Assembly (NCBI RefSeq): GCF_040784935.1
Contig: NZ_CP160680.1
Location: forward strand, 1,479,501 to 1,543,500
Source of the DNA: Lewinella sp. LCG006
GTDB taxonomy: Bacteria; Bacteroidota; Bacteroidia; Chitinophagales; Saprospiraceae
Length of the DNA stretch: 64,000 nt
Direction: 5' to 3'
Shown here: piece by piece, positions 1-64,000 of the stretch
Layout: every line of letters begins with the position of its first letter
Numbering within the stretch: the stretch's first letter is position 1
Position numbers and translations under genes: made by a program
Notes under the pieces: model-generated
What the model saw: the letters and a program-made list of their open reading frames with translations, nothing else
What the model was told of the DNA's origin: nothing
The model's database searches: none

Positions 1-3000
1 CGAAGAAGGCATCATACGGCATCAAATCGTTCGGAAGGTTAGAATCCGTTACGCTGATATTGCGCAACTGAATACCATCAATACCGCCAAGGATACGTAG
101 TGTGAGGCTGAAGTTTACTTCTTCGCCAGCACAAATCTCATCGCGATCTGCTTCCTTGTCAATGTTGATAAATACGCCGGTGTAATTCGACGGATCATTG
201 TCCGTGACATTAGGATCACCGTTTGGATTACCGTTTTCATCAACAGGGGTACCTACTACATCGGCAATATTGGTGTAGCGTCCACGCATTGCAGAACCCG
301 TGCGGGTAAAGGTTTGAGATGCACCAGCGGCAAGGAACGGAATCGTTCCGATAAAGCCTTCCTGGTCATCATTCACCTGAACGTTCACCAGGTCAAGGGT
401 GCCGGTATTGGTTACCACGTAAGTCCAGGTTACCGTTGGCGGAGTGTTAGGTACAAGGATAATTGCTCCAGGAGCATTATCTGCATCTTGTCCGTTGGTA
501 GCTTTCTCAATATCGATAGAAGCCGTTTGGCTAACAGGAACTTCTTCGTCGTCCTGATCATCTTCACCAGGAACTTCGTTATCTGGTGTAGAATCGGTAT
601 CATCACCATTATCCACCGTGATCTCAGCAACATTCACCAAGGAGGTACCTTGGAAGTTGTTGTCAATCGTAGTCTTCACAATGAAAGTTACCGTCTGGCC
701 AATCGCCAGGGAAGGAATGGTATAGGTACCGTTGCCGTTGTTGATTACGGAAGTGCCGTTGGCATCAAAACCAGTAATCGTCAGACCAGCAGGAACGCGA
801 TCCGTTACAACTACATTGGCAGCAGCCTGGCTTCCTTCGTTGGTTACGGTAATATTGAAATCAACGGGGCTGTTCTGAGCGTAAGGCCCAGGCGTACCGC
901 TATTGATGTCCTTGTTCAAGGCCAGGTCGTAAGTGGTCAGACCAGCATCAAGATCAGGATAGTTATCACCAGACATGAGGCTTACGACTTCCGTCATACC
1001 GTTCATGGCAGGATTGGCATCAGAATCAAGCGCTTCGTTTCCGCCTTGGTTGGCGGTCGTGAATTGGTAACCTGTAGGCAATACAAACTGTACGCTGTAA
1101 TCGCCTGGCTCCAGGTCGGTAAATTCGTAGAAACCAACACCATTGGTCGTGGTATTATCGATGATGTTACCATCAGCATCTTTCAGATTAACGGTAACGC
1201 CTTCAACAGCAGGTTCGCCAGCATCCTGGATACCGTTGCCATTGAGATCTTCCCAAACGAAATCACCGAGAGAAGCACAAGCTACTTCGTTGATAGTAAC
1301 CGTAGCAGTACTGTTTGGTCCGGTACAACCTTTGCTATCCGTTACCGTCACTGTGTACACACCAGGTGCGAGACCAGTAATCATTGCTGTCGCTCCGCCA
1401 TTGCTCCAAGCATAGGAGTAAGGAGGAGTACCGCCGCTAGCCGTAGCTGTAGCAGTTCCATTGTTTTGATCACAATTAGGATCAGTACCCACTGCTGTCA
1501 CAGCAGGATTAGGATTAACTACTACCTCTACAATATCAGAAGACTGACAATCATTGTCATCAACTACGGTTACTGTATAAGTTGTTGTTGCGGTTGGTGA
1601 AACAGTAATGGAAGCACCGGTGAGGTTACCAGGCATCCAAACAATGTTGAATGGTTGGGTACCATTGGTCACCGTAGCCGTAAGGGTTACGCTTTCGCCA
1701 AAACAGATTTCATCGTCGTTGCCAGCATCTACGGTTGGGCCGCCGATGTTGTCGATGGTTACACTACCTATACCGAAACAGCCTTTGCTGTCGGTGGCAG
1801 TAACCGTGTAAACACCTGGGGCAAGGCCAGTGATCGCTGCACCGCTTGCACCGTTGCTCCAAGCGTAGGTGTAAGCAGCCGTTCCGCCTGTGGCAGTAGC
1901 TGTTGCGGTACCATTGTTGTCGCCACAAGTAGCATCAACTCCTACTACGTCTACCGTAGGATTAGGATTGACGATTACTCGTACCACATCTGTAGCCGTA
2001 CAACCGTTGGCATCCGTAATGGTCACCGTGTAGTTGCGGGTAGCTGTTGGGGTAAAGGTCTTGCTAGCGCCGTTGCCCAAACCTTGGTTCCAGCTGTAGG
2101 TAATTGGTGCAGTTCCGCCAGTGGCAACTGCTGTGATGGTCACTTCCGTACCAGCACATACTTCCTGATCCATGCCGGCATTAACCGTTGGACCAGGGAT
2201 ATTTTCGATCGTTACGCTGCCTACGCCCGTACAGCCTTTGCTGTCGGTGGCCGTAACGGTGTACGTTCCGGGGGCAAGGCCAGTGATGGTCGCACCGGTA
2301 GCGCCGTTGCTCCACGCATAGGTGTAAGCAGCTGTTCCACCAGTGGCTGTAGCAGTGGCTGAGCCGTTGTTATCGCCACAAGTAGCATCAACACCTACTA
2401 CATCTACCGTAGGATTAGGATTGACGGTTACTACTACCTGGTCGGTAGCTACACAACCATTGGCATCTGTTGCCGTGGCCGTGTAAGTGGTCGTTGAAGT
2501 AGGGCTAACGATGATGCTTGCTCCGCTTAGGTTACCTGGCATCCAGGTAATGCTTACTGGGGAGGTGCCACCGCTTGTCGTAGCCGTAAGGGTTACGCTT
2601 TCGCCAAAACAGATTTCATCGTCGTTGCCAGCATCTACGGTTGGGCCGCCGATATTGTCGATGGTTACACTTCCTACACCGAAACAGCCTTTGCTGTCGG
2701 TGGCAGTAACGGTGTAAACACCTGGGGCAAGGCCAGTGATCGTTGCACCGGTAGCACCGTTGCTCCAAGCGTAGGTGTAAGCTGCCATACCGCCTGTGGC
2801 AGTAGCTGTTGCGGTACCATTGTTGTCGCCACAAGTAGCATCAACTCCTACTACGTCTACCGTAGGATTAGGATTGACGATTACTCGTACCACATCTGTA
2901 GCCGTACAACCGTTGGCATCCGTAATGGTCACCGTGTAGTTGCGGGTAGCTGTTGGGGTAAAGGTCTTGCTAGCGCCGTTGCCCAAACCTTGGTTCCAGC

Positions 3001-6000
3001 TGTAGGTAATTGGTGCAGTTCCGCCAGTGGCAACTGCTGTGATGGTCACTTCCGTACCAGCACATACTTCCTGATCCATGCCGGCATTAACCGTTGGGCC
3101 AGGGATATTTTCGATCGTTACACTGCCCACACCCGTACAGCCTTTGCTGTCGGTGGCCGTAACAGTGTACGTTCCAGGGGCAAGGCCAGTGATGGTCGCG
3201 CCGGTAGCGCCGTTGCTCCACGCATAGGTGTAAGCTGCTGTTCCACCAGTGGCTGTAGCAGTGGCTGAGCCGTTGTTATCGCCACAAGTAGCATCAACAC
3301 CTACTACATCTACCGTAGGATTAGGATTGACGGTTACTACTACCTGGTCGGTAGCTACACAACCATTGGCATCTGTTGCCGTGGCCGTGTAAGTGGTCGT
3401 TGAAGTAGGGCTAACGATGATGCTTGCTCCGCTTAGGTTACCTGGCATCCAGGTAATGCTTACTGGGGAGGTGCCACCGCTTGTCGTAGCCGTAAGGGTT
3501 ACGCTTTCGCCAAAACAGATTTCATCGTCGTTGCCAGCATCTACGGTTGGGCCGCCGATGTTGTCGATGGTTACACTACCTACACCGAAACAGCCTTTGC
3601 TGTCGGTGGCGGTAACGGTGTAAACACCTGGCGCAAGGCCACTGATCGTTGCACCGCTTGCACCGTTGCTCCAAGCGTAGGTGTAAGCAGCCGTTCCGCC
3701 AGTGGCAGTAGCTGTAGCGGTACCGTTGTTGTCGCCACAAGTAGCATCTACACCTACTACGTCTACCGTAGGGTTAGGATTGACGGTTACTCGTACCACA
3801 TCTGTAGCCGTACAACCGTTGGCATCCGTAATGGTCACCGTGTAGTTGAGGGTAGCCGTTGGCGTGAAGGTCTTGCTAGCGCCGTTGCCTAAGCCCTGGT
3901 TCCAGCTGTAAGTATATGGTGCAGTTCCTCCAGTGGCAACTGCTGTGATGGTCACTTCGGTACCTGCACACACCTCTTGGTCTGTACCAGCATTAACTGT
4001 TGGGCCACCGATATTTTCAATCGTTACACTACCTACGCCCGTACAGCCTTTGTTGTCGGTGGCCGTAACGGTGTACGTTCCTGGGGCAAGGCCAGTGATG
4101 GTCGCGCCTGTAGCGCCATTGCTCCACGCATAGGTGTAAGCTGCTGTTCCACCAGTGGCTGTAGCTGTGGCTGAGCCGTTGTTGTCGCCACAAGTAGCAT
4201 CAACTCCTACTACGTCTACCGTAGGATTTGGGTTGACAGTAATCGAAATTTGCTTACTATCCACACATCCTTCAGTACTTGTAAAGGTGTAGGAAACTTG
4301 GAAAGTACCAGCTGATGTTGGTGTAAACATTCCCGTAGTACTCACATTACCACCCCAAACACCACCGGCTGGGCTTGCGTAAATTTGTACTGGATCGCTA
4401 CCAACACAGAATGGACCGACTGCTTCAATTATTACCTCAGGAACTGGCACAACAACAACAGTAGTTGTCGCAGAAAGATCACATCCATTTCCAGTGTAAT
4501 TATAAGTAATGGTATATGATCCAGGACCGACGGCAGCCGGATTGAATACATTACCGCTCACCCCTGGTCCAGAGAACGATCCTCCCGCAGGTGTAGCAGA
4601 CAAGGAAGCAGTACCACCGTCGACACATAGTGGGGCAATGGGATCGATAGAAACCTCAGGGGCATCCGTTACAAATACGGTAACATCATCCACATCAGAA
4701 CAGCCTTCGCTATTGGTCACCGTAACGTAGTACGTCGTAGTTGTAAGCGGAGAAACCTGAATAGAAGCGGTTGTTTCACCTGTGCTCCAGGCATAAGATC
4801 CCCCTCCGGTAGCCGTTAGTGTGACGTTGCGACCTGCGTCATCGCATTCGCTGGTAGATATCCCTCCACTGAATGGACGGTTATGTAATTCTCCTGATAC
4901 GTGAGTATAGGCTGCAGCAATTAATTGTCCTTCAATATTAGCGGGAGTGTTTTTGGTTACATTGGCATTAGGAGCCAAAACCGTACCTAGTAACGTTTGT
5001 GCACCATTGAGATTCAAGGTAGCTACGTTACCAAAATTCCACAGGATATGAGTACCTGACTCATTTCCAACTCCTGAGAAATTAGGAACATTCCAGTTTA
5101 CAGAGCCGCTTATATCAACATTTATAATAAGTAAAGTACTACTGCTTGGAGGCGTATTAAACATGATTTGGTTAATACCACTCAGTTCAGCAGCAGATAA
5201 GGTTAGGTAGTTTGTCGTATTTGGAGTTAGGTTAATGGTAATCGTTCCACTTCCGCTATAAGTAGTGTTAGCTACTTGAGAGGCCAGGCTAGAAGAGAAA
5301 GAACGCAAAGCACTAAACGCACTACCGAAATTAATAACGCCACTTTGTAGGACGCTACTTTCAGATTGCATGGTAGCCAATGATACCGCTGGCGTTGTAT
5401 CATAGCCGCCAGGAGTTATTCTGGTGTTGACAATGCTAGATCCGATGTTATCAATAACATTTGACCCGGTACCATCTCCAAGTTTTACGTAGCCATTTTG
5501 CAATACATTAACGCCGCTGCCACTAGTGTAGATGACACGACCGCCAATAACCAGTGCCGTTGGGTTAGCATCTCCAGAAGCAACAAAATTACCCGCAGTG
5601 TGTAATGCTAAATTGTAAGCTCCCTGAAGGTTTAGGTTTCCACCCAATGCTACGGGGCCTTCTGAATCACCATTAACAAATACGGTATTACCTTCAACAA
5701 AAGCATTGAAAATACCTGTGATAGAGGAGAAGTCATTATTAATAGGCTCACCAACACACTCACAGATGGTCTCATCTGTACCAGCATTAGCAGTAGGTGC
5801 ATTTGGCTCCGTAATAGTGATATCCTCAGGCCAAATGGCTTCACAGCCAGTATGGACACCAATGATTGTGATATCAGAATAAGTACCCGCACAAAGACCA
5901 TTCAAATGGAAACCAGCCAATGAGGTAAAGGTACCTGGCACCTGAACCACCTGACCATTGTAGGTGTATTCGATGCGGTACTCTCCTGTAGTATTGAAGT

Positions 6001-9000
6001 TGGCATCCACAAAGATGACACCGTCACAGTTGCCTTCACAATTGGAGACGTTGCTCACCAGGCTTACTTCATCCCAAGCGGCTTTGTTCACGGTCACGGT
6101 TACGTGATCTTCATCGGTACAACCATTGCCATCAGTAACGGTCACCCCATAAGTGGTGGTTACAGCAGGACTTACGTTGATGGAAGAAGCAGTAGAACCG
6201 TTGCTCCACAAGTAGGAGATATTGTCACCATCTACGATGTTGGCCGTAAGGGTTGTTGATTCTCCAAGACAGATGGTCAAACACTCAGGATTGGTATTGA
6301 GTAGCGCAATTCCGGAAAGGTTGAAATTGAAGTCACCTGAAGTATCGTCATTCAACGTACCACCAGTGTTTGGGTGACTAAGCACATCAAAAGTTAACCA
6401 GCCTGAACCTCCGAATGCCGCTGCATCATTTAAGTTGGCTCCCGTACCCATCTGGAAAGAAGGTCCGGTGCGAACAAACTTAACGACTGCCCCGGTAAGA
6501 GCACCAGCACCAGTCATTGTAGCTTCTAATTCGGGATAGTAGTACCAGTCACTATTGTTTAGGTCACCAATACACTGCGCATTTTCCTTTGGACTACCTG
6601 CTGGAGCAACAAAAGTACGCCCACGGAATACGGTCTTGATATTAAAGACAAGGTTACCATTGCCATTATTTACCACCTGCATAGATGCTACTGCTGTACC
6701 ATTAGCAAATTCCTGGAAGGAACCCGAAACGACACTCCAGTGTGGCTGGCTGGTAAAGTTACTCACCAAAGACCCCGTATAGAACCCATAGACATTAGAC
6801 CCACAAGTTTGAGCACTATTGGAAATTGATCTCAGATAAATAGGATCATCCGCACAAGCGACATTGACCAATGGATTAGGATTAACCGCAACAATTACTT
6901 CGTCGGTATCGGTACAACCGTTGGCATCTGTCACCGTTACCACGTAAGTGGTCGTAGCGGTAGGACTTACCGTTTTGGTTGCGCCGTTGCCGAGGCCATT
7001 GTTCCAGCTAAAGGTGTAAGGAGCAGTTCCGCCATTTGCAACAGCGACCAGGCTTACGCTTTCGCCTGCACAGATGGTTTCATCTGAACCCGCATTAACC
7101 GTTACACCACCACTGCCAGAAATGGTCACTGAGCCAATATCAAAACAGCCATTCGCATCCAATACGGTGACACCATAAGTGCCTGGAGCGAGGTTGTTTT
7201 TAGTGGCACCAGTACCCAAGCTACTACTCCACATAAAGGTGTAAGGAGCAGTACCACTGGTAGCACTTGCGGTAGCTGAACCATTGTTCTGCCCACAAGA
7301 TGCATTGGTTTTGGAAATAGAAATATCAGGATTAGGGTTAACCGTGACAACAATCTGGTCAACACCCGTACAACCCGCCGCATCGGTTACCGTCACCCCA
7401 TAAGCGGTGGTAGCAACAGGAGATACTACGTGGCTGGCACCATTGCCCAGGTTATTGTCCCATGCATAAGTGTAAGGCGCAACACCATTAGAAGCCGAAG
7501 CCTGGATGGTCACATTGCTACCTGCACAAATGGCTACGTCGGGACCAGTAGTGACACTGATTCCGCCGAGGAGGTTAACTTGGTAATCTTCCACTTCACC
7601 ATCCTGATTCGCGTCAAGGGTGCTACAGAAGTTGCCCGTAGGGCCACCTTCGTTGACACTGCTTTGGATGGTAAAACGAGCGAAAGAAGTACCACAGCTT
7701 ACGTTATTAGGAACGTTGATGGTGAAGGTATGGGTGCCCGTTGAGCGGTTGTTATTAGAACCCACAACAAAGTTGTTAATAACACGCTCGGAAGGATTAT
7801 CGAAATCACCATCACGGTTCCAATCGATCCAGCCGTAAATGTGGCCTTCCATGTCATTAGAACTCCAGCTTAGGGTGATCTGCTTGGTCGTTCCTCCCTG
7901 GAGGTCGGCACCACCGACAAAAATTACACCATCCTCATCATCACCATTGGCATCATTGTCGTCACCCATGGCATCAGCAGAGTTTTGACTACTGTCATCA
8001 CTGTCGACCATGTCGCCCAATCGGGTTGGAGAGAAAGGATTGCCGTTGCTGTTATTAATGGTGTAGCAAATGCTGCCGTAAGAAGCTGGCGCATCTCCGT
8101 AGTCTGTTCCTAAGTTTGGACACTCGACATCGGCGTGTACCAAACCAGCAATAACCCATGATTGGCCACAACCACTACCATTAGGGTTAGAGGAAGAACG
8201 CGTATCTACTTCGATACTCACTTGGGTTGTACTTCCAGGTACATTCGCAAGCGTAAGATCAACAACTGCTAAACAACAACCATTGTCCGGACCATAAATG
8301 GTTTCGGTAGTTGTTACACCGCCAGCCGTAGCACGAACGGTAAGAAAACGTCCATCCGTCGTCAACTCTGAGATGGGTAGAGAAACGGTGATATTACGAG
8401 AAGTAACATCAGTAGGGATAGGAATAGTGAACGTTTGTAAATTACAATATCCGCTAATGGCCGTAAAGGTACCACTAGAGGATCTTTTTATTGTCGTATT
8501 ACGGAAAGGATAAACGACTAAAGACTGAAGGCCATTGTTACTGGCACAACTTCCAGTAGCTGAATTATGACCTATCCAAGAAGGGTTATTGGTTATCAAG
8601 CCACGATATACATAAACATTACTACTTGCTCCTGAAATATCGACCTGCTGAATCCAGTAGGTATTGCCCGCATTATCAAAAATCTGAACACTGGTTCCAG
8701 GGTATTGATTTTTGTAAACCACTTCTGCAACGACTTGGTATACATTGGACGGGTTGGTAATATTTACTTGTGCGTTGGGGGTAGCATTACAATTCACACC
8801 CACGCCTGAGACCCCTACTTCTACATAATCATCGCAAGTAAAAGCGTAATTGGTTGGGCCTGTAGGAAGGGTTGGGTTAGAACAGTTTCTATTTCCGAAA
8901 TTGAAATTACCATTACAGTTCAACCATTGGGTATCACCACAACCGGTTCTCGTTGCACTGCTTTCAGTTTGGTAGGTCGTTCCACCCACCGTAATGTAAT

Positions 9001-10189
9001 CGATGAAAGCATTTTTATCACAACCACTACCTGTAGTGCCATCATTGATAAAGGCCACTTTTATCTGCTGACCATTTGTAAAGCCCGTGTAGGTATAGTT
9101 AGCCAATGAGGTGGTCAATGTCCAAGTCTGTACCGCAGTACCATTTAGTTGCAGTTGGATTTGCTCACCTCCACAATTTCCTTTGGCGCGAACCACTACA
9201 CTACAATCACCTTGGGGTGCTGACAAACAAATGTAATCTACAAACGGTTGGATATGACTTAAGTTAGGTAAGAAGAACACCATTTGGCTAGCCACACCAG
9301 TAAGGTTGCTATTGGTCACCGCTGCTATTGCATTTGTGGCAAGCTGATTGCTCGTACTACTCGTATTGGTGACATACCAAATCGCCTGGTTCACTTGAGT
9401 GCGCGTATACCCACTAGATTCACCATGGCAAATGATCCAGTTGATGCGCTCAGCCGTAAGGTTAGAATAGCCGGCGTTTGAGGCGCCAACAACTCTGGTG
9501 AAAGTAACATCACCATAGTTATAACCATTACCTGGTGTAGGAGCTGTTTTGTTATAATCCAAACACATTACACGCTCTGACATCTCTACGTTACAACTAC
9601 TACTCACACGAGCGATACATCCCAGATAATCATTATCCGTGTAGATGTAAGTGCTCGGAGAAATGTTGTTTCTGTAGATGGTTACCGTTTCGCCATCACA
9701 GTTGGTGTGGCTAATGAAACCTGTCCCACAGAAGGTCCGACCTACCGTAAAGTCACAAGCATGCTCAATTAAATAAGCACGCTCGAAGGTAGCAGAGGTA
9801 CAATTATCCGACTCCCTGATAAGCTGAAAATCAGCATAACGCGAAGGATACAGCCCCGACAAGGTGAGTTGTCCATCGGTTGTAGTCAGGCCGGTAACGG
9901 TCTTAACTTTCGTCCCGAAGGCCATCTGTAGGGTGTACGTTTGCGCGGCAAAGCCTGCTTGATCCGCAACTGTAAAGTACAGTTGACCGTCAGCAGCCTC
10001 ACACTCGGATTCGTTGGCCCAGCTTACGTTAAGAATCTCCAAATCTTCACAAGCCCCTTGCAGCGTAGCGCTGTTGAGGGTAGAAGCCGGAGCATTTTGC
10101 GAGAAGCCCAAAAATGGGACAACCAAACAGAGGACCAGAAGGTACCAGTTTGGTGTTTTCGCAGCAGGCACAGTGTAATGATTAACCAT
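1..10189 (-). CDS. Giant T9SS-type surface adhesin, N-terminal 3,396 residues (C-terminus outside window)
   Basis: The frame is open from the ATG at 10189 to the window edge. Residues 1-30 are a signal peptide (hydrophobic run about 16-29, likely cleavage before QNAP). Residues about 150-320 resemble a Cys-Gln thioester domain: Cys209 in MCLDY, QAIW at 268-271, Gln314 in IQPFV. Residues about 325-412 resemble a CBM60 carbohydrate-binding module (GGEQIQLQLNG, then a Trp-Thr-Leu-Thr strand and an Asn-Asp-Gly turn). Next come a GEVED domain (about 695-873), PKD/SprB-like domains, a choice-of-anchor A domain (about 1480-1780), three copies of a 302-residue PKD/SprB block (about 1980-2880), an SdrD B-like domain (about 2969-3080) and DUF11-like domains. 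A T9SS sorting domain is expected beyond the edge but not seen. Its visible tail matches a segment of the adhesin at 37891-64000 closely, so the two are paralogues. The role as an exported adhesin is inferred. Confidence 0.93.
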   Translation of the reverse strand, partial: MVNHYTVPAAKTPNWYLLVLCLVVPFLGFSQNAPASTLNSATLQGACEDLEILNVSWANESECEAADGQLYFTVADQAGFAAQTYTLQMAFGTKVKTVTGLTTTDGQLTLSGLYPSRYADFQLIRESDNCTSATFERAYLIEHACDFTVGRTFCGTGFISHTNCDGETVTIYRNNISPSTYIYTDNDYLGCIARVSSSCNVEMSERVMCLDYNKTAPTPGNGYNYGDVTFTRVVGASNAGYSNLTAERINWIICHGESSGYTRTQVNQAIWYVTNTSSTSNQLATNAIAAVTNSNLTGVASQMVFFLPNLSHIQPFVDYICLSAPQGDCSVVVRAKGNCGGEQIQLQLNGTAVQTWTLTTSLANYTYTGFTNGQQIKVAFINDGTTGSGCDKNAFIDYITVGGTTYQTESSATRTGCGDTQWLNCNGNFNFGNRNCSNPTLPTGPTNYAFTCDDYVEVGVSGVGVNCNATPNAQVNITNPSNVYQVVAEVVYKNQYPGTSVQIFDNAGNTYWIQQVDISGASSNVYVYRGLITNNPSWIGHNSATGSCASNNGLQSLVVYPFRNTTIKRSSSGTFTAISGYCNLQTFTIPIPTDVTSRNITVSLPISELTTDGRFLTVRATAGGVTTTETIYGPDNGCCLAVVDLTLANVPGSTTQVSIEVDTRSSSNPNGSGCGQSWVIAGLVHADVECPNLGTDYGDAPASYGSICYTINNSNGNPFSPTRLGDMVDSDDSSQNSADAMGDDNDANGDDEDGVIFVGGADLQGGTTKQITLSWSSNDMEGHIYGWIDWNRDGDFDNPSERVINNFVVGSNNNRSTGTHTFTINVPNNVSCGTSFARFTIQSSVNEGGPTGNFCSTLDANQDGEVEDYQVNLLGGISVTTGPDVAICAGSNVTIQASASNGVAPYTYAWDNNLGNGASHVVSPVATTAYGVTVTDAAGCTGVDQIVVTVNPNPDISISKTNASCGQNNGSATASATSGTAPYTFMWSSSLGTGATKNNLAPGTYGVTVLDANGCFDIGSVTISGSGGVTVNAGSDETICAGESVSLVAVANGGTAPYTFSWNNGLGNGATKTVSPTATTTYVVTVTDANGCTDTDEVIVAVNPNPLVNVACADDPIYLRSISNSAQTCGSNVYGFYTGSLVSNFTSQPHWSVVSGSFQEFANGTAVASMQVVNNGNGNLVFNIKTVFRGRTFVAPAGSPKENAQCIGDLNNSDWYYYPELEATMTGAGALTGAVVKFVRTGPSFQMGTGANLNDAAAFGGSGWLTFDVLSHPNTGGTLNDDTSGDFNFNLSGIALLNTNPECLTICLGESTTLTANIVDGDNISYLWSNGSTASSINVSPAVTTTYGVTVTDGNGCTDEDHVTVTVNKAAWDEVSLVSNVSNCEGNCDGVIFVDANFNTTGEYRIEYTYNGQVVQVPGTFTSLAGFHLNGLCAGTYSDITIIGVHTGCEAIWPEDITITEPNAPTANAGTDETICECVGEPINNDFSSITGIFNAFVEGNTVFVNGDSEGPVALGGNLNLQGAYNLALHTAGNFVASGDANPTALVIGGRVIYTSGSGVNVLQNGYVKLGDGTGSNVIDNIGSSIVNTRITPGGYDTTPAVSLATMQSESSVLQSGVINFGSAFSALRSFSSSLASQVANTTYSGSGTITINLTPNTTNYLTLSAAELSGINQIMFNTPPSSSTLLIINVDISGSVNWNVPNFSGVGNESGTHILWNFGNVATLNLNGAQTLLGTVLAPNANVTKNTPANIEGQLIAAAYTHVSGELHNRPFSGGISTSECDDAGRNVTLTATGGGSYAWSTGETTASIQVSPLTTTTYYVTVTNSEGCSDVDDVTVFVTDAPEVSIDPIAPLCVDGGTASLSATPAGGSFSGPGVSGNVFNPAAVGPGSYTITYNYTGNGCDLSATTTVVVVPVPEVIIEAVGPFCVGSDPVQIYASPAGGVWGGNVSTTGMFTPTSAGTFQVSYTFTSTEGCVDSKQISITVNPNPTVDVVGVDATCGDNNGSATATATGGTAAYTYAWSNGATGATITGLAPGTYTVTATDNKGCTGVGSVTIENIGGPTVNAGTDQEVCAGTEVTITAVATGGTAPYTYSWNQGLGNGASKTFTPTATLNYTVTITDANGCTATDVVRVTVNPNPTVDVVGVDATCGDNNGTATATATGGTAAYTYAWSNGASGATISGLAPGVYTVTATDSKGCFGVGSVTIDNIGGPTVDAGNDDEICFGESVTLTATTSGGTSPVSITWMPGNLSGASIIVSPTSTTTYTATATDANGCVATDQVVVTVNPNPTVDVVGVDATCGDNNGSATATATGGTAAYTYAWSNGATGATITGLAPGTYTVTATDSKGCTGVGSVTIENIPGPTVNAGMDQEVCAGTEVTITAVATGGTAPITYSWNQGLGNGASKTFTPTATRNYTVTITDANGCTATDVVRVIVNPNPTVDVVGVDATCGDNNGTATATATGGMAAYTYAWSNGATGATITGLAPGVYTVTATDSKGCFGVGSVTIDNIGGPTVDAGNDDEICFGESVTLTATTSGGTSPVSITWMPGNLSGASIIVSPTSTTTYTATATDANGCVATDQVVVTVNPNPTVDVVGVDATCGDNNGSATATATGGTAAYTYAWSNGATGATITGLAPGTYTVTATDSKGCTGVGSVTIENIPGPTVNAGMDQEVCAGTEVTITAVATGGTAPITYSWNQGLGNGASKTFTPTATRNYTVTITDANGCTATDVVRVIVNPNPTVDVVGVDATCGDNNGTATATATGGTAAYTYAWSNGASGAAITGLAPGVYTVTATDSKGCFGIGSVTIDNIGGPTVDAGNDDEICFGESVTLTATVTNGTQPFNIVWMPGNLTGASITVSPTATTTYTVTVVDDNDCQSSDIVEVVVNPNPAVTAVGTDPNCDQNNGTATATASGGTPPYSYAWSNGGATAMITGLAPGVYTVTVTDSKGCTGPNSTATVTINEVACASLGDFVWEDLNGNGIQDAGEPAVEGVTVNLKDADGNIIDNTTTNGVGFYEFTDLEPGDYSVQFVLPTGYQFTTANQGGNEALDSDANPAMNGMTEVVSLMSGDNYPDLDAGLTTYDLALNKDINSGTPGPYAQNSPVDFNITVTNEGSQAAANVVVTDRVPAGLTITGFDANGTSVINNGNGTYTIPSLAIGQTVTFIVKTTIDNNFQGTSLVNVAEITVDNGDDTDSTPDNEVPGEDDQDDEEVPVSQTASIDIEKATNGQDADNAPGAIILVPNTPPTVTWTYVVTNTGTLDLVNVQVNDDQEGFIGTIPFLAAGASQTFTRTGSAMRGRYTNIADVVGTPVDENGNPNGDPNVTDNDPSNYTGVFINIDKEADRDEICAGEEVNFSLTLRILGGIDGIQLRNISVTDSNLPNDLMPYDAFF
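1535..4250 (-). repeat. Three tandem copies of a 906-bp (302-residue) PKD/SprB-like block
   Basis: Landmark sequences recur at exactly 906-bp steps: the segment starting TAAGGGTTACGC is at 1681, 2587 and 3493, and a second landmark at 2141 recurs at 3953 (two steps). Each block codes for alternating PKD-like (CxGESVTL...W...TTTYTVTVxDxNGC) and SprB-like (CGDNNGTATATATGG...AYTYAWSNGA...LAPGVYTVTATD) domains. Long stretches are identical at base level, so amplification is recent. Edges are approximate. Confidence 0.88.
8954..9742 (-). other. Candidate thioester domain plus CBM60-like module inside the adhesin at 1-10189
   Basis: Two adjacent head domains. The first shows the three landmarks I associate with Cys-Gln thioester domains of Gram-positive adhesins: a Cys after a hydrophobic residue and before Leu-Asp (Cys209), an aromatic-rich QAIWYVT strand (268-274), and a Gln in IQPFV (Gln314), with 105 residues between the putative bonding pair. 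The canonical TQxAIW is only partly kept (VNQAIW). The second has the order seen in Ca-dependent xylan-binding CBM60 modules: a VRAKG strand, GGEQIQLQLNG, TWTLTT, a VAFINDG turn and an aspartate-rich FIDYITVGG strand. Assignments rest on motif recall, not on a profile search. Confidence 0.5.
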
Positions 10190-10266
10190 GGTTTAGCTTT
10201 GTGTTGTTGTGTTCTTTCCTAAAACTTTTGGTGCCATTTATGAGATGTACACCTATATGCAGACAG

Positions 10267-10299
10267 GCTATCATGGAATCACGAAAATTCCTTGATAGC
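10267..10299 (-). promoter_or_regulatory. Imperfect 13-bp dyad in the probable leader of the adhesin gene
   Basis: Arms GCTATCA-T-GGAAT and ATTCC-T-TGATAGC pair over 12 of 13 positions around a 7-base loop, 78-110 bases upstream of the ATG at 10189. There is no T-run after it in the direction of transcription, so it is more likely an operator or a leader hairpin than a terminator. Function unknown. Confidence 0.45.
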
Positions 10300-10499
10300 A
10301 ACTGAAATGCCAAAATTGTAATCCTACTTTATCAGTAGAACCGTTTTTTAACACACCACCTTAGATAGTAATTACACTACACGAATTGGTAGCGTAAAAG
10401 AAAGGAAATGTGTTGTTCAAAGTGTTTGTGTATGTAGATTAATATGACTCCAGTGGCCATACCTATCACCTAATTTTGAAGAAAACTCAAGGGGGGGGA

Positions 10500-10864: not shown

Positions 10865-11053
10865 TTTTAGCAAAAATATTATTCTGGGTAGTTCAATAAG
10901 ATCAAAACATTAGAGAAGGAAAAACACACTTGAATGTAATTCCTAGGCCAGACTGCCCTACACCCTATTATTTATAGTGCTCTGGTAAACATTACTACGC
11001 TATACTACACTGTGAGAGGCACTGAGCTAAATCCCTGATTTTTACTTTCTAAT

Positions 11054-12721
11054 TCAAGCGAAACCTTTCTTGATCGTAAAAGAAAACGAGGTTCCCTTAC
11101 CTAATTCTGACTCCAGCCAAATTTCACCTTCGTGCTGCTCTACCAACCGCTTACACAAAGCAAGTCCAATGCCTGTTCCTGCAAACTGTTCTTGGGTATG
11201 CAAGCGCTTGAAAATTAAAAAAATCTTTTCTTGAAACTCTTTAGCTATACCTATCCCATTATCTTTTACCAAAAACTCCCAGTGATGTTCTTGTTCTTTC
11301 AAGCTCACCAATACCTCTGGTTGATTATCCTTATTTTGAAACTTCAGACTATTACCGATCAAGTTCATTAAAATTTGTTTCAACTTGATATAGTCTGCAG
11401 CGATTACATCGCATCTAATGTCCCAGGAAAGTCGGCCCTTTTTTTCCTTAATAAGTTCTCTTAGTTCTTCGACCAATTCTTCGCTTAAGGTGCTAAATTT
11501 AAAGGTTTTCAATTTTATCTTTTCCGTATTGGCACGAGAAAAGCTCAAGAGGTCTCCTATTAGTGCCTGCATATTTTTAGCACTAGAAATGATAAAGGAC
11601 AAAAAATCCCGTTCACTATCACTAAGGTTTTGAGCTCGCTTTTGGAGTAAATTAGAAAAACTTACGATGGACCTGATGGGTGCTTGCAAGTCGTGAGAAG
11701 CGATGTAAGCAAAATTTTCCAACTGCATATTACTTTCAATGTAGCGCTGCAACACTTCGTTCTGTTCGTTAAGCTTTTCAAGCTGCTTATTGATCAGTTT
11801 TTCTTTATGTAGTGCTTCTGTAAAATCACGAAAGAAGCGAATCAATAACAACCGCCCATTGATTTCAATGACCCACTGCAAGGCATCAATATCAAAATAT
11901 TTGCCTCCGGATGCTTTTATTCTAAAGATCTCTTGGCTTTCTTTCCTAGTAGATAAATCAAAGACCATCCGCTCAAAGACAGTTTCCGAGGTTTCGTTAT
12001 TTTGCTGATCTGCGGTAAACAAAGGAGCTACTTCTTCACTTGTTGCCATCAACTTATCCTTGGATTGAAGATAAGTTTCCATATTTTTATTTCGAATAAA
12101 CAAGGTGGCTGTTGCCGGATTCTTCCCATCGAAATGTGTAATATCCAGGATATCTATTCCAGCCCGAGCATGATCAACAATCGTTTTGTAGATAAGCTCA
12201 CGTTCCTTTGCCGCTTGTCGCTGCTCGGAAAGTTCGGTGGTATCTCGAATAGCTGTAATGCAACCTATTATTTCTCCCGTTTCCAGCCGGTGAGGAGCAA
12301 CTACCAATTGGCTATTGTAATCACTGTCTTTTCCCCCTTTTTTTGAGTAATATTCCTCAATGACCGTTTCTCCCTTTAAGGCAGATTCCATCATCTCTTG
12401 CCATAAAACGGCAAGGTCTTCTCGATAAGGTCTCATCACCTCAATACAGTTATCACCCAATTTAAAGGTCAAACCCAGCTCTTTCAATATTTTTTTTTGA
12501 GCCAGCCCATTGATCGCCGATATTCTAAATTCTCGATCAACACCTAACGCATTTTCTGGCAGGCAATCCAATACCGCCTGTAATCGGAGATCAGGCTGCC
12601 ATCCCTCAGGTTTTTCAGCAGTTTTTACTACTTTTCCTAAAGTTTCAATATATGCAACCACCTTATTTTGCTGTTCTTCCGAAAACCCATGCAAGGCCTT
12701 CTTCAAAAGGTGAATATCCAT
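11054..12721 (-). CDS. Soluble PAS-domain sensor histidine kinase
   Basis: A 555-residue protein with no signal peptide or membrane segment. Numbering from the ATG at 12721: a PAS-like domain at about 45-163, a second at about 178-303 ending in a coiled coil (about 300-333), then HisKA with the H-box SHDLQAPIRS (phospho-acceptor His343), the N-box ILMNLIGNSLKF (Asn453/457), the G1 box DNGIGIA (487-493) and the G2 box GTGIGLAL (about 515-522). All catalytic motifs are intact, so it should autophosphorylate in response to a cytosolic signal. No response regulator lies beside it. An in-frame GTG at 12787 would add 22 residues; the ATG is preferred because MDIHLLKKALHGF begins a plausible amphipathic helix and the extra stretch looks like leader sequence. 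It lies between two giant adhesins on the same strand; control of them is possible but unproven. Confidence 0.94.
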   Translation of the reverse strand: MDIHLLKKALHGFSEEQQNKVVAYIETLGKVVKTAEKPEGWQPDLRLQAVLDCLPENALGVDREFRISAINGLAQKKILKELGLTFKLGDNCIEVMRPYREDLAVLWQEMMESALKGETVIEEYYSKKGGKDSDYNSQLVVAPHRLETGEIIGCITAIRDTTELSEQRQAAKERELIYKTIVDHARAGIDILDITHFDGKNPATATLFIRNKNMETYLQSKDKLMATSEEVAPLFTADQQNNETSETVFERMVFDLSTRKESQEIFRIKASGGKYFDIDALQWVIEINGRLLLIRFFRDFTEALHKEKLINKQLEKLNEQNEVLQRYIESNMQLENFAYIASHDLQAPIRSIVSFSNLLQKRAQNLSDSERDFLSFIISSAKNMQALIGDLLSFSRANTEKIKLKTFKFSTLSEELVEELRELIKEKKGRLSWDIRCDVIAADYIKLKQILMNLIGNSLKFQNKDNQPEVLVSLKEQEHHWEFLVKDNGIGIAKEFQEKIFLIFKRLHTQEQFAGTGIGLALCKRLVEQHEGEIWLESELGKGTSFSFTIKKGFA

Positions 12722-12820
12722 ATTATTACAGGGTACTTTTGGGTTTAGTGTTCTGCTTTCATTAATACACGGAAAGTATGATAACACTCCCTTTAAGAAC
12801 TAATCAATCAGTTTAGTTCA

Positions 12821-12839: not shown

Positions 12840-12927
12840 CGCCTTTCAGATCGGCAAACCTTTTTTTGGCACTAAAATTGGCTCATGTTCCCAAAAAATA
12901 TAGGTGTACTTCAGCCACTTACCCCAC

Positions 12928-12963
12928 AAAAAAAACGGCGGCACCCACAAAGGATACCGCCGT
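12928..12963 (-). terminator. Rho-independent terminator of the 4,826-residue adhesin gene
   Basis: On the minus strand a stem ACGGCGG / CCGCCGT (7 bp, perfect) with a 15-base loop is followed directly by a run of eight T. It begins 27 bases after the stop codon of the gene ending at 12990. It separates that gene from the kinase gene downstream, arguing that the kinase has its own promoter. Confidence 0.92.
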
Positions 12964-12989
12964 CTGTTGTCTAATTTATCGTGTGGGGA

Positions 12990-27984: not shown

Positions 27985-27992
27985 CATTGCTC

Positions 27993-28628
27993 CTACAACA
28001 TACCATAAGTATCATAACCACCTACGCTTATCCCCTGCTGCTCGGCATTGCAGGATACATAATGCCCAAATCCATAGTTGGGTAAATTCTTTTCTCCAAA
28101 AAACTGGCCCTGCCAAATACAAAGACTATCTGAATTATTGAAAACCCCTTTGTCAAACAAGCAATAACTCACATACCGTCTTTTGCTTATCATCTCCTTC
28201 CTCTTTAACCTGACGAAGATACTCCCTCTTGTTTCCCCTTCCCGCAAATCACTAATCCTCAACCACCAGGTCCCATTAGGGTTCTGGCCACTATTAAGAA
28301 AACCCATCCGCCCATCTGGTATATATTCTCCGTTTACGAAAGGAGGAGTAGCCTGATGTATATAACCGGAGAAGCTATTCCTACGAAAACATGCATCATA
28401 ATAGTCTCTTGCTGTTGCACCACCATTGCGGTTGGTCAGCCATATGCTACTCCCATCAGGGCTTTGCAATTCCACCTTAAGATCCGACACTCTAAGGTGA
28501 ATAATCGTAATACAAATTTTCCCCAACCCCAACTTTTCACCTAAGTGATCTGGCAATCCAGTCACCTGAATAGGGAAAGAATCATACACACTAAAAAAGG
28601 CGTCACCAGGTTTCCCCGATGACGCCAC
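27993..28628 (-). CDS. Small proprotein-convertase P-domain protein, possibly a remnant
   Basis: 211 residues from a GTG at 28628, 25 bp after the stop of the gene at 28654. Residues about 15-140 match the P/Homo B domain that follows subtilisin-like catalytic domains and also occurs alone in Bacteroidota exported proteins: LKVELQSPDGSSIWLTNRNG, a Cys and PPFVNGEYIPDG segment, and NPNGTWWLRISD. No protease domain, signal peptide or T9SS sorting domain is present, which is odd for a domain normally exported. The last about 65 residues are basic then Cys-containing and match nothing I recognise. No ATG lies upstream in frame before a stop, so the start is uncertain. It may be a truncated fragment of a larger exported protein, or a cotranscribed accessory to the adhesin upstream. 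Confidence 0.6.
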   Translation of the reverse strand: MASSGKPGDAFFSVYDSFPIQVTGLPDHLGEKLGLGKICITIIHLRVSDLKVELQSPDGSSIWLTNRNGGATARDYYDACFRRNSFSGYIHQATPPFVNGEYIPDGRMGFLNSGQNPNGTWWLRISDLREGETRGSIFVRLKRKEMISKRRYVSYCLFDKGVFNNSDSLCIWQGQFFGEKNLPNYGFGHYVSCNAEQQGISVGGYDTYGML

Positions 28629-28653
28629 GTCTAATTTACCTTTTAATTTTAGT

Positions 28654-52800: not shown

Positions 52801-55800
52801 TACCAGATCGATAGCGCCTGTCGCAGATCCATTACAATCGGCATCGGTCAAGACGGTTGCGTTAAGATCGATTTCGAGCGTGGTCGGCTCTTCAATCGTG
52901 AACGTCGCTTCATCCGTACAACCCTGCGCATCTGTAACGGTAACCGTGTAAGTGCCAGCGGTAAGACCAGTGAGGTCTTCCGTTGTCGCACCTGTGTTCC
53001 ACAAGTAAGTGTATGGGGTCGTGCCACCTGTGACTACCAAGTCGATAGCTCCTGTCGCAGAACCATTACAATCGGCATCCGTCAAGACGGTCGCGTTAAC
53101 ATCGATTTCTAAAGTCGTTGGCTCTTCAATCGTGAACGTTGCTTCATCCGTACAACCTTGCGCATCTGTAACCATAACCGTATAGGTATCAGCCGTCAGA
53201 CCACTCAGGTCTTCGGTCGTCGCACCCGTGTTCCACAGGTAAGTGTATGGTAAAGTACCACCCGTGACTACCAAGTCAATAGCGCCTGTGGCAGATCCAT
53301 TACAATCGGCGTCGGTAAGTACCGTAGCGTTAAGGTCAATTTCTAAAGTCGTAGGCTCTTCAATCGTGAACGTCGCTTCATCCGTACAACCTTGCGCGTC
53401 CGTAACCGTGACGGTGTAGGTGCCAGCAGTAAGACCACTTAGGTCTTCGGTCGTCGCACCTGTGTTCCACAGGTAAGTGTATGGTAAAGTACCGCCAGTG
53501 ACTACCAAGTCGATAGCTCCTGTGGCGGAGCCGTTACAATCTGCGTCGGTCAAGACGGTAGCGTTAACATCGATTTCGAGCGTCGTCGGCTCTTCAATCG
53601 TGAACGTTGCTTCATCCGTACAGCCTTGCGCATCCGTAACCGTGACCGTGTAGGTGCCAGCAGTAAGACCAGTGAGGTCGTCGGTCGTCGCACCCGTGTT
53701 CCACAGGTAAGTGTATGGTAAAGTACCGCCAGTGACTACCAAGTCGATAGCTCCTGTCGCTGCTCCATTACAATCTGCGTCGGTAAGTACCGTTGCGTTA
53801 AGGTCGATCTCAAGCGTAGTAGGCTCTTCGATCGTGAACGTTGCCTCATCCGTACAACCTTGCGCATCTGTAACCGTGACGGTGTAGGTGCCAGCAGTAA
53901 GACCACTTAGGTCGTCGGTCGTCGCACCTGTGTTCCACAGGTAAGTGTATGGTAAAGTACCGCCAGTGACTACCAAGTCGATAGCGCCTGTGGCAGATCC
54001 GTTACAATCGGCGTCCGTGAGGACGGTGCCAGTCAGATCGATTTCGAGCGTCGTTGGCTCTTCGATCGTGAACGTCGCTTCATCCGTACAACCTTGCGCA
54101 TCCGTAACCGTGACGGTGTAGGTGCCAGCAGTAAGACCGATCAGGTCTTCGGTTGTCGCACCCGTGTTCCACAGGTAAGTGTATGGTAAAGTACCGCCAG
54201 TGACTACCAAGTCGATAGCACCTGTCGCTGATCCGTTACAATCGGCGTCGGTCAAGACGGTCGCGTTAACATCAATTTCTAAAGTCGTAGGCTCTTCAAT
54301 CGTGAACGTCGCCTCATCCGTACAACCTTGCGCATCCGTAACCGTGACCGTGTACGTGCCAACAGCCAGACCACTCAGGTCTTCCGTTGTCGCACCTGTG
54401 TTCCACAGGTAAGTGTATGGTAAAGTACCGCCAGTGACTACCAGGTCGATGGAACCAGTCGCAGAACCGTTACAATCCGCATCGGTAAGCACAGTTGCAG
54501 TCAGGTCAATTTCCAGCGTGGTCGGCTCTTCAATCGTGAACGTTGCTTCATCCGTACAACCTTGCGCATCCGTAACCGTGACCGTGTAGGTACCAGCAGT
54601 AAGACCGATCAGGTCTTCGGTCGTGGCACCCGTGTTCCACAGGTAAGTGTATGGTAAAGTACCACCAGTGACTACCAAGTCGATAGCGCCTGTGGCAGCT
54701 CCATTACAATCGGCGTCGGTAAGTACCGTTGCGTTAAGGTCGATCTCAAGCGTGGTCGGCTCTTCGATCGTGAACGTCGCTTCGTCAGTACAACCTTGCG
54801 CATCCGTAACGGTGACCGTGTAGGTACCAGCCGTCAGACCACTAAGGTCTTCGGTCGTCGCACCCGTGTTCCATAGGTAAGTGTATGGTGAAGTACCACC
54901 CGTTACTACCAAGTCGATAGCGCCTGTGGCGGAGCCATTACAATCGGCGTCGGTAAGCACCGTTGCGTTAAGGTCGATCTCGAGCGTCGTCGGCTCTTCA
55001 ATCGTGAACGTCGCTTCATCCGTACAGCCTTGCGCATCCGTAACCGTGACCGTGTAGGTACCAGCAGCCAGACCACTCAGGTCTTCCGTTGTCGCACCCG
55101 TGTTCCACAGGTAAGTGTATGGTAAAGTACCACCCGTTACTACCAAGTCGATAGCGCCTGTCGCTGCTCCATTACAATCGGCGTCCGTAAGCACCGTAGC
55201 GTTAAGGTCGATTTCTAATGTCGTAGGCTCTTCAATTGTGAATGTTGCTTCATCCGTACAACCTTGCGCATCCGTAACCGTGACCGTGTAGGTGCCAGCA
55301 TTAAGACCACTCAGGTCTTCTGTTGTCGCACCCGTGTTCCACAAGTAAGTGTATGGCAAAGTACCGCCAGTTACTACCAGGTCGATAGCGCCTGTGGCTG
55401 ATCCGTTACAATCGGCGTCGGTAAGTACCGTTGCGTTAAGGTCGATTTCTAATGTTGTAGGTTCTTCAATGGTGAAGCTCGCTGTATCGCTACAGCCTTG
55501 CGCGTCCGTCACCACTACCGTGTAAGTACCCGCAACCAGGTTGCTGATATCTTCCGTTGAGGCGGTGAAGCCGTTGGGGCCAGTCCAGGCGTAGGTGTAA
55601 TCTGGGGTACCACCGCTAACGCTTAGGTCTATCGATCCCGTCGCTGATCCGTTACAATCAGCATCTTCTGTCGTCGTGCCTGCTACATCGATTACCAAAG
55701 TCGTTGGTTCATCGATCGTGAAGCTGGCCGTATCGCTACAGCCATTGGCGTCGGTTACGATTACGGTGTAGGTACCAGCCTGCAGGCCAGTTAGGTCTTC

Positions 55801-58800
55801 CGTAGAAGCCGTAAAGCTGTTCGGGCCGGTCCAAGCGTAAGTGAGGGGTGCAGTACCATCATTTACGGTCAAGTCAATCTCACCGGTTGAGGCACCATTA
55901 CAATCGGCTGGGGTTACCGTTGTACCAGCGGTTATTACGGGGCCAGGCTCGTCCTGGATGGTCGCGTCTGGCAGGTCAACTGGACAGTCGCCGCCATTGC
56001 CATCCCAGTTGCTCCAAAGATCGTAAGTGCCTGGTGCAAGTCCTGTGATAGTAAAGCTACCTGCATCATCAGGGCTACTGTAGGGATAAGTAAGGCCGCC
56101 ATCAATGCTAAAACGGATTATCGTGCGTACAGGTGTATCAGGGAAATTGAAGGTTATAGTCCCATTAATATCACCACAAGTTGCGTTTCCTTCAACAATA
56201 CTAGTGATGACAGGTATTGCCTCTACATTTACGGTAGCTGTCGTTTCACCCGTACAGGTGGTAACGCCTCCATCAGCGCTGGTATAGGTGCTTGTTACGG
56301 TCACGTTATAATTAGTAGTTACTACTGGTGATACCGCAATAGATGCTGTCGTTTGGCCAGTGTTCCACAAGTAGGTATAACTGCCATTTCCTGCACCAGG
56401 AACAGCAACAAGCGTAGCCGTTTCACCGGCACAGATCGTTTGATCCTCAACTGTCACCGTTGGGTTTGGAGCGACCTCGACCATTACAACGTCACGTTCT
56501 CTACAACCGTTGACATCCGTTACTCTAACGAAGAAATTGTTAACCTGACCACTAATAAGTTCTCCAGGTCCTACCGTCAATGATGTTGTCGTTGACAAAA
56601 TTGTTCCTGGAGCCGTCGCATTCCACCATTGGTAAGTAAACGGAGGCGTACCAAAGAAGACATTTTCAACAATCAGGGTCGTTGATTCGCCTTCACAAAT
56701 CGTAAGGTCATCGCTCACATCCGGTACGGGTAATGGATTAACGGTAACAGTTCCTGTCGCAGTCCCTGTACATCCATCTGCATCGGTCACCGTCACCGTG
56801 TAGGTGTTGGTAGCAAATACCTCTTCGATCACAATCGAAGACGAGGTTTCTCCAGTACTCCACAAATAGGTGTAAGGTGGTGTACCACTGCTGACGACTG
56901 CTACCAATGTTGCATCTTCATCTGCACAAAGCGTTACATCATTAACCGTTACCACTGGGACTGGGTCTGCAATAATAGTGATGGTAGTAGTCGCTGTACA
57001 GTTATTCGCATCGGTAACTGTTACGGTATAGGTCCCTGGTGCTAAATTGGTACGATCTTCTGTCGTTCCTCCATCGTTCCAGGCATAAGTATAAGGATTT
57101 GTACCACCGCTGGCCGTCACGTCAATCGTACCGTTGGCCATAGCACAAGTTTCATCCGTTTTCGTAGCACTCACCTCAAGGTTGGTTGGCTCCGTAACCT
57201 CAAAGCTAGCGGTGTCTTCACAATCGTTCGCATCCGTTACGATTACCGTATAGCTGCCAGCTGCCAGGCCAGAAATATCTTCCGTACTAGCGGTGAAGCC
57301 ATTAGGTCCCGTCCAAGCATAAGTGTAAGCGGGCGTACCACCGCCAACACTCAAGTCGACAGCACCTACGGCTGTGCCAATACAGGTAGTATTTGTAACC
57401 GTGCTACCATCAAGGTCAATCACCAGCGGAGTAGGTTCATTTATGGTAAAGGATTGTGTAGCAGAACAACCACCATCATCACTTACGGTTACGGTATAAG
57501 TTCCAGCAGAAAGCCCGGATCGATCAGCAGGGTCGTTGGTACCCGCAAGGTCACTCCAGTTGTAGATATAATTACCGGTGCCTCCGTCTACCATCAACTT
57601 AATGCTTCCGGTGGCGGCTCCATTACAATCAGCATCTGCTGACGTAGAACCTGTCAATACGATAGGATCAGCAATCTCAATATTAACGTAAGCCGTATCG
57701 GTACAACCAGAATTGGCAAAGACAATTACTTGATAATTACCGGCAGTATTCGCTGTAAAAGTCGCTGATTCCGTAAAGGAAAACGCATTGTTTACATCGT
57801 TCAATGGCGACCAGATGTACCCTGCAATGCCGTCTCCGGGATTGGCAGGAGCTACGGTTCCGGTTGGGTTACCCATCAGCGTCACTTGGGTGCCTGCACA
57901 AACTAACAGGTCATCCCCTGCATCAGCAATGGGGTTCAAATCAGGATCAACAACTACCGTCATTTCATCGCTACGGGTACAGTTATTGAGTGTAACCGTC
58001 ATGGTGTAGGTCGTCGTTACCAGCGGGCTGGCAACTGGCTGCGCGGCAGTGGTGCTCGTCAGTGTTCCATTATTAGGACTCCAAGAATAGGTAGCACCAA
58101 TAGGAGCTGATTGCCCCTGAGGAAGGCCAATCTGGATACTTCCACCCTGACAGATCACTTTATCAACACCAGCATCGGCAAAAACTGCTCCGGAGATATT
58201 GACATCTTTGGTATAAACACGGGTACAAGCTCCACGGGTTACCGTCAAGGTGACGGTGTACACACCAGGCGTATTCCCCCAGCTCGTAGTGAAGGTTTCT
58301 CCTGTGCCAGTGGCTGGCGTTGCGGGTCCAGTAGCTGTCCAGCTGTAAGTGGCTCCCGCTACGGGGGTTGCTGTGTACGTTGTAGGTTCTTCAGCGCAGA
58401 GGTTACCCAAGCCTGTGATCCCTGAAGTAAAGGCTGGATCTACAGTAATGGTTACTTCATCAGTAGCTGTACAATTTCTCGTATCCGTTACCGTCGCAGT
58501 GTAAGTCTGAGTAGTGTTAGCGGTCACGGTTACGTTATTCCCCGTAAGGTTGCCGGGCATCCAAACGACGGACAAAGTTCCTGTTCCTCCGCTAGTAACA
58601 GCGGTAAGCGTAACCATGTCCCCTTCACAAACCGTAGCATCAGCATTGACACTAATCGTAGGTGCGGACAATTCATTGACAGTAACTACGGTTTCTTCCG
58701 AACAGCCATTAGCGTCTTCCACCATCACAGTGTAATCGCCAGCGGCCAAGCCCGTAACAGTACCGGTATTTCCTACATCAGGCAACCAAGTAAAGGTTAG

Positions 58801-64000: not shown

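Follow-up and report, generated by a model that had tools for sequence, protein, structure and literature searches.

The window analysed here, 64,000 nucleotides of the Lewinella sp. LCG006 genome (1,479,501-1,543,500 on one 7,507,556-base contig), is dominated by four giant minus-strand genes that we call A, B, C and D. A first-pass annotation of the window had reported four such proteins filling about 60 of the 64 kb, with both outer genes running past its ends. The sizes match. The frames encode at least 3,396 amino acids (aa) for A (2-10189), 4,826 aa for B, 3,055 aa for C and at least 8,702 aa for D (37891-63999), and 59,948 of the 64,000 bases lie in them. Extension of the contig both ways completed gene A to 9,740 aa (genome 1,460,467-1,489,689) and gene D to 13,314 aa (genome 1,517,391-1,557,335), although D more likely starts at Met25, where the copy in a Lewinella relative begins. 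With its flanks the locus has 92,817 of 96,869 bases in genes A-D, and the frames on either side of the four genes are of ordinary size. Chance is not at issue for the giant frames, because they run uninterrupted for up to 40 kb and carry domain matches throughout.

The complete giant open reading frames (ORFs) have signal-like N-terminal stretches. In A, a signal peptide (assigned by eye) is followed by a thioester-like head, a carbohydrate-binding module (CBM60), GEVED, an ice-binding-like adhesive domain and SprB repeats; left of the window come SdrD_B and DUF11/CLIPPER arrays and then a type A C-terminal domain of the type IX secretion system (T9SS). An all-against-all comparison showed an N-terminal head region common to A and D, and a C-terminal stretch of about 1,000 aa common to B, C and D, of which A shares only part. 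The head of B is an ice-binding-like domain. That of C has no Pfam match over the cut-off and occurs in 22 of 100 genomes, our own included.

All four proteins had been taken for T9SS cargo. This was borne out for three of them, since the TIGR04183 sorting domain (cut-off 23 bits) scored 48.1 bits in A, 35.0 in C and 35.2 in D, but it had no match in the last 457 aa of B, whose end still aligns with the others, with insertions, and has diverged. The two machinery components that we searched for are present in the genome, sprA at 2339.5 bits and gldM at 251.7 bits. They lie 106 kb and 2.9 Mb, respectively, from the cluster, near which the first-pass annotation had advised looking for such components. 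Type A T9SS proteins are described as anchored through linkage to anionic lipopolysaccharide (PMC9143113). Given the sorting domain and what is established about T9SS, we infer that the giants are exported and anchored by their C-termini.

The head of A is predicted to have the fold of a thioester domain (TED). AlphaFold2 (AF2) modelled it from 17 aligned rows with a predicted local distance difference test score (pLDDT) of 87.3 and a predicted TM-score (pTM) of 0.83. When this model was compared with the PDB by Foldseek (245 matches at E up to 10, the best 50 of the 245 inspected), ranks 1-23 were all entries for thioester-domain proteins of Gram-positive bacteria, among them CpTIE (5a0g, 5a0d), Cpa and SfbI, at E 4.5e-5 to 1.5e-3; rank 24 was unrelated, at E 0.1. 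The 17-row profile gave four matches among PDB sequences at E up to 10, including the CpTIE TED (5a0g) at 0.0012 and its Cys138Ala entry (5a0d) at 0.061. A profile built from A and D alone had no match there up to E 10.

The residues that would form the bond also agree with CpTIE. The conserved Cys falls on chain position 49 of 5a0g, where the mutant entry 5a0d has Ala, and position 178 is matched by the conserved Gln. Their spacing (178-49 = 129) equals that of the CpTIE bond pair (267-138), given as Cys138/Gln267 in PMC4450167. All 23 distinct homologues retain both residues, a set pooled from two alignments that each contain the row from the window and in which 9 of the 16 loci of our named-genome scan are the same sequences as in the first set. 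In the 16-row alignment only 10 of the 196 positions do not vary at all, the presumed bond Cys and Gln among them. The residue before the Cys is Tyr, Phe or Leu in 13 of the 16 rows, as in the [YFL]C motif, and Met in 3, A itself included. Ile, Leu, Val or Phe precedes the Gln in all 16 rows; the zeta place of the Phi-Q-zeta-Phi-Phi motif is Pro in 14 of them, not a hydrophilic residue. A central A-I-W is found in 15 of the 16 rows. We rejected the Gln of this helix motif as the bond Gln, as it is kept in only 7 of 16 and the bond Gln is described as lying in a later strand (PMC4450167). An internal Cys-Gln thioester bond in the heads of A and D is likely, if unproven.

Several results weigh against covalent thioester heads or limit their reach. 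The Foldseek TM-scores were moderate, at 0.41-0.52 by query length and 0.24-0.57 by target, and the other two matches of the 17-row profile (E 0.2 and 0.77) were unrelated. Taken singly, the segments aligned with CpTIE are weak (Cys, 7.0 bits, independent E 41; Gln, 12.9 bits, independent E 0.65). Pfam TED (PF08341) reached 18.8 bits in A, short of its cut-off of 22 (E 0.0022), and had no match in D. The domain was found in only 13 of 100 relatives and, in a draw across the phylum, in 1 of 395 genomes, our own; that draw scored at most eight candidates of each listed genome and represented the family by only six listed genomes, our own included. With so few carriers, the function is not general. 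We hold the Pfam shortfall to be a detection limit of the model and not a defining feature of the domain. Genome-wide, Pfam TED matched in 0 of 60 genomes and also in 0 of 14 controls, so this negative says little alone, and the A/D profile finds the domain in 9 of the same 60.

Other cysteines are also well conserved in the domain (C20 and C47 in 16 of 16 rows, C55 and C110 in 15 of 16), which means that the presumed bond Cys could instead be in a disulfide. The head would then have the TED fold without a thioester and serve as a non-covalent adhesin, probably binding glycan or protein. With five or more conserved cysteines per TED, a secreted, oxidising location, a weak Pfam score and moderate TM-scores, this explanation has points in its favor. 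However, a disulfide has no use for the Gln, which every homologue keeps and which aligns on the CpTIE bond Gln, and the residue before the Cys fits [YFL]C in most rows. We consider the disulfide unlikely.

Table 1. Coordinates of features at the giant-gene locus (window positions unless stated otherwise).
Feature	Position	Strand	Remarks
Gene A, N-terminal 3,396 of 9,740 aa	1..10189	-	extends to genome 1,460,467, 19 kb beyond the left end of the window
453-bp tandem array, 5.7 copies, A stalk	1676..4237	-	
Ice-binding-like adhesive domain of A (pAdhesive_15)	4880..5722	-	PF20597, E 1.6e-51
Stretch with head domain common to A and D, 48% identical	8090..8929	-	
CBM60 carbohydrate-binding module of A	8954..9199	-	Pfam PF16841, E 2.8e-16
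TED of A, residues 145-340	9170..9757	-	presumed bond residues Cys209 (codon 9563-9565), Gln314 (codon 9248-9250)
HisKA-HATPase sensor kinase, 577 aa, between A and B	11054..12787	-	
Terminator-like hairpin directly 3' of B	12933..12965	-	14 pairs, 8 G-C, then T-run
Gene B, 4,826 aa	12990..27470	-	ice-binding-like head, GEVED repeats, SdrD_B, shared tail, diverged T9SS-type C-terminus
252-bp tandem array, 6.8 copies, B	23757..25481	-	
Decayed P-domain and lysyl oxidase frame, 211 aa, between B and C	27993..28628	-	
Terminator-like hairpin directly 3' of C	28599..28626	-	12 pairs, 8 G-C, then TTTTTT
Gene C, 3,055 aa	28654..37821	-	DUF11-type stalk, shared tail, T9SS C-terminus, head without Pfam family
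Tail module of C	28657..29904	-	regulatory-like domain, dockerin, cohesin-like region, T9SS sorting domain
Gene D, C-terminal 8,702 of 13,314 aa	37891..64000	-	start at genome 1,557,335, 13.8 kb right of window
Tail module of D	37894..39135	-	
Lysine- and histidine-free run of 3,616 residues in D, 23.6% Thr	46312..57159	-	
234-bp (78-aa) SprB-repeat array of D, 37.2 copies, 87% match	46814..55524	-	PF13573
TED of D	L006:12956-13483		L006, flanking stretch right of window

Carbohydrate-binding modules adjoin the TED in both proteins. In A this is the CBM60; in D, a stretch near the N-terminus (L006:13466-13945) matches the module 2zex, which we take to be CBM16, at E 3.1e-7, with no Pfam call for it in the N-terminal 288 aa. 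A comparison of the further head domain shared by A and D with PDB sequences gave nothing at E 1 or better.

The stalks are built from Pfam modules that include SprB, SdrD_B, DUF11, DUF7507, Ig_7, PKD-like and GEVED, and SprB repeats (PF13573) are numerous in A and D. DUF11 has been renamed CLIPPER and described as an isopeptide domain with the residues Lys-715, Asp-748 and Asn-806, at +33 and +91 from the Lys (PMC12617251). Using a tolerant pattern (Asp at +28..41 and Asn at +78..103 after the Lys motif), we found that, of 20 candidate Lys motifs of A, 13 complete a Lys-Asp-Asn triad, as do 2 of 3 in D; the same pattern gave no Lys candidate in B or C. Ten of the 13 triads of A sit in an array of 133-aa repeats at exactly +35/+90, and 10 of the 11 lysines between residues 5331 and 6690 of A are at the triad place. 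The triads of A fit CLIPPER/DUF11 domains that may be locked by isopeptide bonds.

The long run without lysine or histidine in D consists largely of the copied 78-aa repeat. We rejected the idea that a stalk free of lysine shields the fibre from its own thioester, as other nearby frames are equally poor in lysine (0.38% in ORF 51, which has a T9SS-type end, and 0.73% in ORF 2). Sequons of the form D-[ST]-[AILVMT] are fewer than in shuffled sequences (25 against 75 in A, 2 against 35 in B, 9 against 17 in C and 15 against 102 in D), a comparison that the repeats inflate.

We think it probable that A-D are giant T9SS fibrillar adhesins and that A and D carry thioester heads for covalent capture; here we infer the bonds, the surface location, the target and the adhesion itself. 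T9SS would export each chain through its C-terminal signal and hold that end at the outer membrane, so that the N-terminal head would be displayed at the tip of a long repeat stalk. In A and D, the sugar-binding modules could dock this tip on a surface coated with glycans. The folded head would spontaneously form a strained thioester between Cys and Gln, and once an amine or hydroxyl group on the target attacked it, the Gln would be left covalently joined to the target. The load would be carried by the stalk, in part through isopeptide-locked CLIPPER (DUF11) domains. B, with its ice-binding-like head, and C, with a head of no known family, would be fibres of the same type with other tips.

The giants might instead be SprB-like adhesins that are moved by the gliding motor and drive motility, not attachment to prey or glycans. 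The many SprB repeats of A and D are what one would expect in that case, as are sprA and gldM in the genome. However, SprB repeats are a stalk module, and to our knowledge the shared tail, the TED and the carbohydrate-binding modules are not features of SprB, whose own head and tail presumably differ from those of A-D. A role in gliding seems improbable to us.

The tail module of B, C and D comprises a prealbumin/carboxypeptidase-regulatory-like domain (below the Pfam cut-off), a dockerin, a cohesin-like region and the sorting domain; A matches the sorting-domain part only. Dockerin PF00404 (cut-off 22.9) scored 30.2 bits in C and 23.5 bits in D, and had no match in B at E 0.001 in a scan of the whole protein, the B tail alone not having been scanned with Pfam. 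The cohesin-like region rests on weak profile matches, the best being 4dh2_A at E 0.0029 with further cohesins weaker, and Pfam gave no cohesin match. AF2 failed to model the tail from three rows (pLDDT 51.2, pTM 0.30). On this chromosome the module is present at full length in 27 places, among 74 matches, in frames of 961 to 13,315 aa. At E<1e-50 it was found in 32 of the 37 family genomes searched, our own included, and in none of 23 genomes from elsewhere in the order. It is thus a family-wide tail of large proteins and no mark of this locus. Several of the 27 full-length copies lie in close pairs (for example 833268/844208 and 924748/937387), and copies of the module with an in-frame stop were seen near 5,022,349, 7,301,508 and 4,606,649.

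The decayed frame between B and C matches residues 18-161 (73%) and 327-398 (76%) of a 446-aa protein of L. cohaerens. The intact counterpart in that species is at the same place (L074:10607-11947), with a P-domain at 48.8 bits and a lysyl oxidase at 43.6 bits. A lysyl oxidase match was present in 20 of the 60 genomes searched and absent from our own genome. Bacterial lysyl oxidases exist, and the authors who describe them urge further study of their function (PMC4448552). That such an enzyme cross-links these fibres is only a guess.

These tails raise the question of whether the giants are matrix or sheath proteins whose chains assemble through dockerin and cohesin-like modules into a cell coat. 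The dockerin of C and D is over the Pfam cut-off with a cohesin-like region in the same tail, full-length tails are many in the genome, and a lysyl oxidase is found at the L. cohaerens locus. Against this, the cohesin assignment is weak, the model of the tail failed (pLDDT 51), A has only the sorting-domain part, and the lysyl oxidase has no match in our own genome. We do not favor a coat and regard it as unlikely. More doubtful still is a covalent harpoon for prey, algae or matrix, made of chains of 10,000-13,000 residues, that would combine thioester tips and isopeptide stalks with dockerin/cohesin-like tails that bundle the giants and, in relatives such as L. cohaerens, lysyl oxidase cross-links. 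Grappling hooks for ixotrophy have reportedly been described in another member of the Saprospiraceae and would use the same secretion system, but fibres of such a predatory lifestyle, with covalent prey capture as an extra, are the least probable of the explanations that we considered. T9SS-secreted hooks attach to prey flagella according to a review (PMC11205867).

The A/D profile gave 16 matches, A and D included, and all 13 genomes that have them belong to our own family. The named-genome scan gave 16 TED loci, with carriers that include L. cohaerens, Phaeodactylibacter xiamenensis, Phaeodactylibacter luteus and Flavilitoribacter nigricans. In 7 of the 13 genomes (G000, G002, G003, G017, G033, G071 and G081) a giant T9SS-type gene adjoins the TED gene; in the remaining 6 (G001, G004, G026, G029, G063 and G077) none was adjacent in the available sequence or the contig was too limited. 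Six of seven whole TED-headed frames have a T9SS-type C-terminus (A, D and those of G003, G017, G071 and G029, the last two by eye only). The exception is a 954-aa frame of G001, which may be truncated. One contig of G071 (L095, G071:C615) has three consecutive same-strand giant frames of at least 2,045, 1,943 and at least 2,301 aa, the second with a diverged TED, and two of the three have a T9SS-type C-terminus by eye.

G002, a genome of our own genus that we take to be L. cohaerens, has seven flanking genes, a LytTR-type gene and the D head arranged as in our genome. Its other contigs carry the D tail, C, the intact lysyl-oxidase protein and B, and a B-like tail followed by A without the kinase. 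The C orthologue there is split by a single in-frame TAA (L074, G002:C36:12162-21350). The D-C order, with the LytTR-type gene on the outer side of D, recurs in L. cohaerens (over two contigs) and in G003, which has C (1,832 aa), D (4,836 aa) and the LytTR-type gene in a row. G017 belongs to a different genus; there the LytTR-type gene comes with three flanking genes and is followed by a paralogue of 1,696 aa, a giant of 7,485 aa with a TED head, and a head like that of C.

The sensor kinase between A and B, which also has a PAS match below the cut-off, is not supported as a part of the system. In L. cohaerens, the matching 1.2-kb gap between the B-like tail and A contains no ORF of 120 aa or more, although that tail may belong to a paralogue, being 75% identical to B where B-like tails on other contigs are 80-81% identical. 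A single operon from A to D is also held unlikely, as terminator-like hairpins directly follow C and B. The search that gave the hairpin after C found more sites across the region than in shuffled sequence (5 vs a mean of 1.0), and the search that gave the one after B found fewer (1 vs a mean of 2.9). D and C may form one transcription unit, because C starts 69 bp behind the end of D with no minus-strand terminator-like site between them. The LytTR-type gene, so labelled from reading its sequence, is divergent from D (G000:C1:1557903-1558661) and is a candidate regulator of a D-C unit. A Bacteroidetes-type promoter pattern had 0 matches in the window and in L006.

The first-pass annotation had proposed a dedicated surface-fibre locus with a kinase inside, in which related genes differ mainly in head and stalk. 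The fibre idea was right in kind. The difference in head and stalk is confirmed: the tails of C and B are 37% and 42% identical to that of D, and the D orthologue of G003 is 4,836 aa long against 13,314 aa in our genome, the ends of the two being related. A dedicated locus holds only in part. The kinase is indeed there but is not conserved, and the copies of the tail across the genome, the hairpins and the distance of sprA and gldM do not agree with a self-contained unit. The D-C order recurs in relatives, but the B orthologue of G003 is on a separate contig. The thioester heads, the isopeptide-type stalk domains and the lysyl-oxidase remnant had gone unmentioned.

Covalent adhesion via thioester domains is described in PMC4450167 as exclusive to Gram-positive bacteria. 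Our literature search, which covered titles and the beginnings of abstracts of the papers listed and reached subscription papers thinly, found no report of a TED in adhesins of Bacteroidota or other Gram-negative bacteria, and none for giant proteins of Saprospiraceae or Lewinella. If the interpretation of A-D as adhesins with thioester heads is true, thioester chemistry reaches beyond Gram-positive bacteria, into the Gram-negative Bacteroidota and a further secretion system. Two of the many giant Bacteroidota proteins without an explained function would thereby gain a concrete mechanism, and the locus would show how such loci diversify, with a fixed tail, a varying stalk length and a swapped tip.

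Several known systems resemble A-D in part. Giant1-5 of Apilactobacillus kunkeei (PMC12863079) are likewise surface proteins of 3,000-8,000 aa encoded by consecutive genes, but they belong to a lactic acid bacterium, Giant1-4 have beta-solenoid N-terminal domains, and the abstract mentions neither T9SS nor TED. Ixotrophy grappling hooks are also T9SS-secreted surface structures (PMC11205867); they are heptameric where A-D are long single chains, and they are compared here by description. SprB of Flavobacterium johnsoniae is a very large T9SS-exported adhesin with SprB repeats (PMC11205867). CLIPPER fibrillar adhesins (PMC12617251) share with the present proteins the DUF11 repeats with a Lys-Asp-Asn triad, the great length and the Por_secre_tail, which at this locus are combined with thioester heads and with SprB, SdrD_B and GEVED stalks, the isopeptide bond here being predicted from the triad pattern. 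A close parallel to the heads is found in the TIE adhesins of Gram-positive bacteria, such as SfbI, FbaB, Cpa and CpTIE (PMC4450167, PMC6194298). These too have an N-terminal TED, with the fold predicted here and the same two bond residues, a stalk in which Ig-like domains repeat, some of them isopeptide domains, and a C-terminal anchoring signal. Unlike them, the Lewinella proteins come from a Gram-negative member of the Bacteroidota, have a T9SS sorting domain instead of LPXTG, reach 13,314 aa and place carbohydrate-binding modules beside a TED whose bond is predicted from sequence and model. What appears to be new is a thioester head on a T9SS giant, in a lineage that is Gram-negative.

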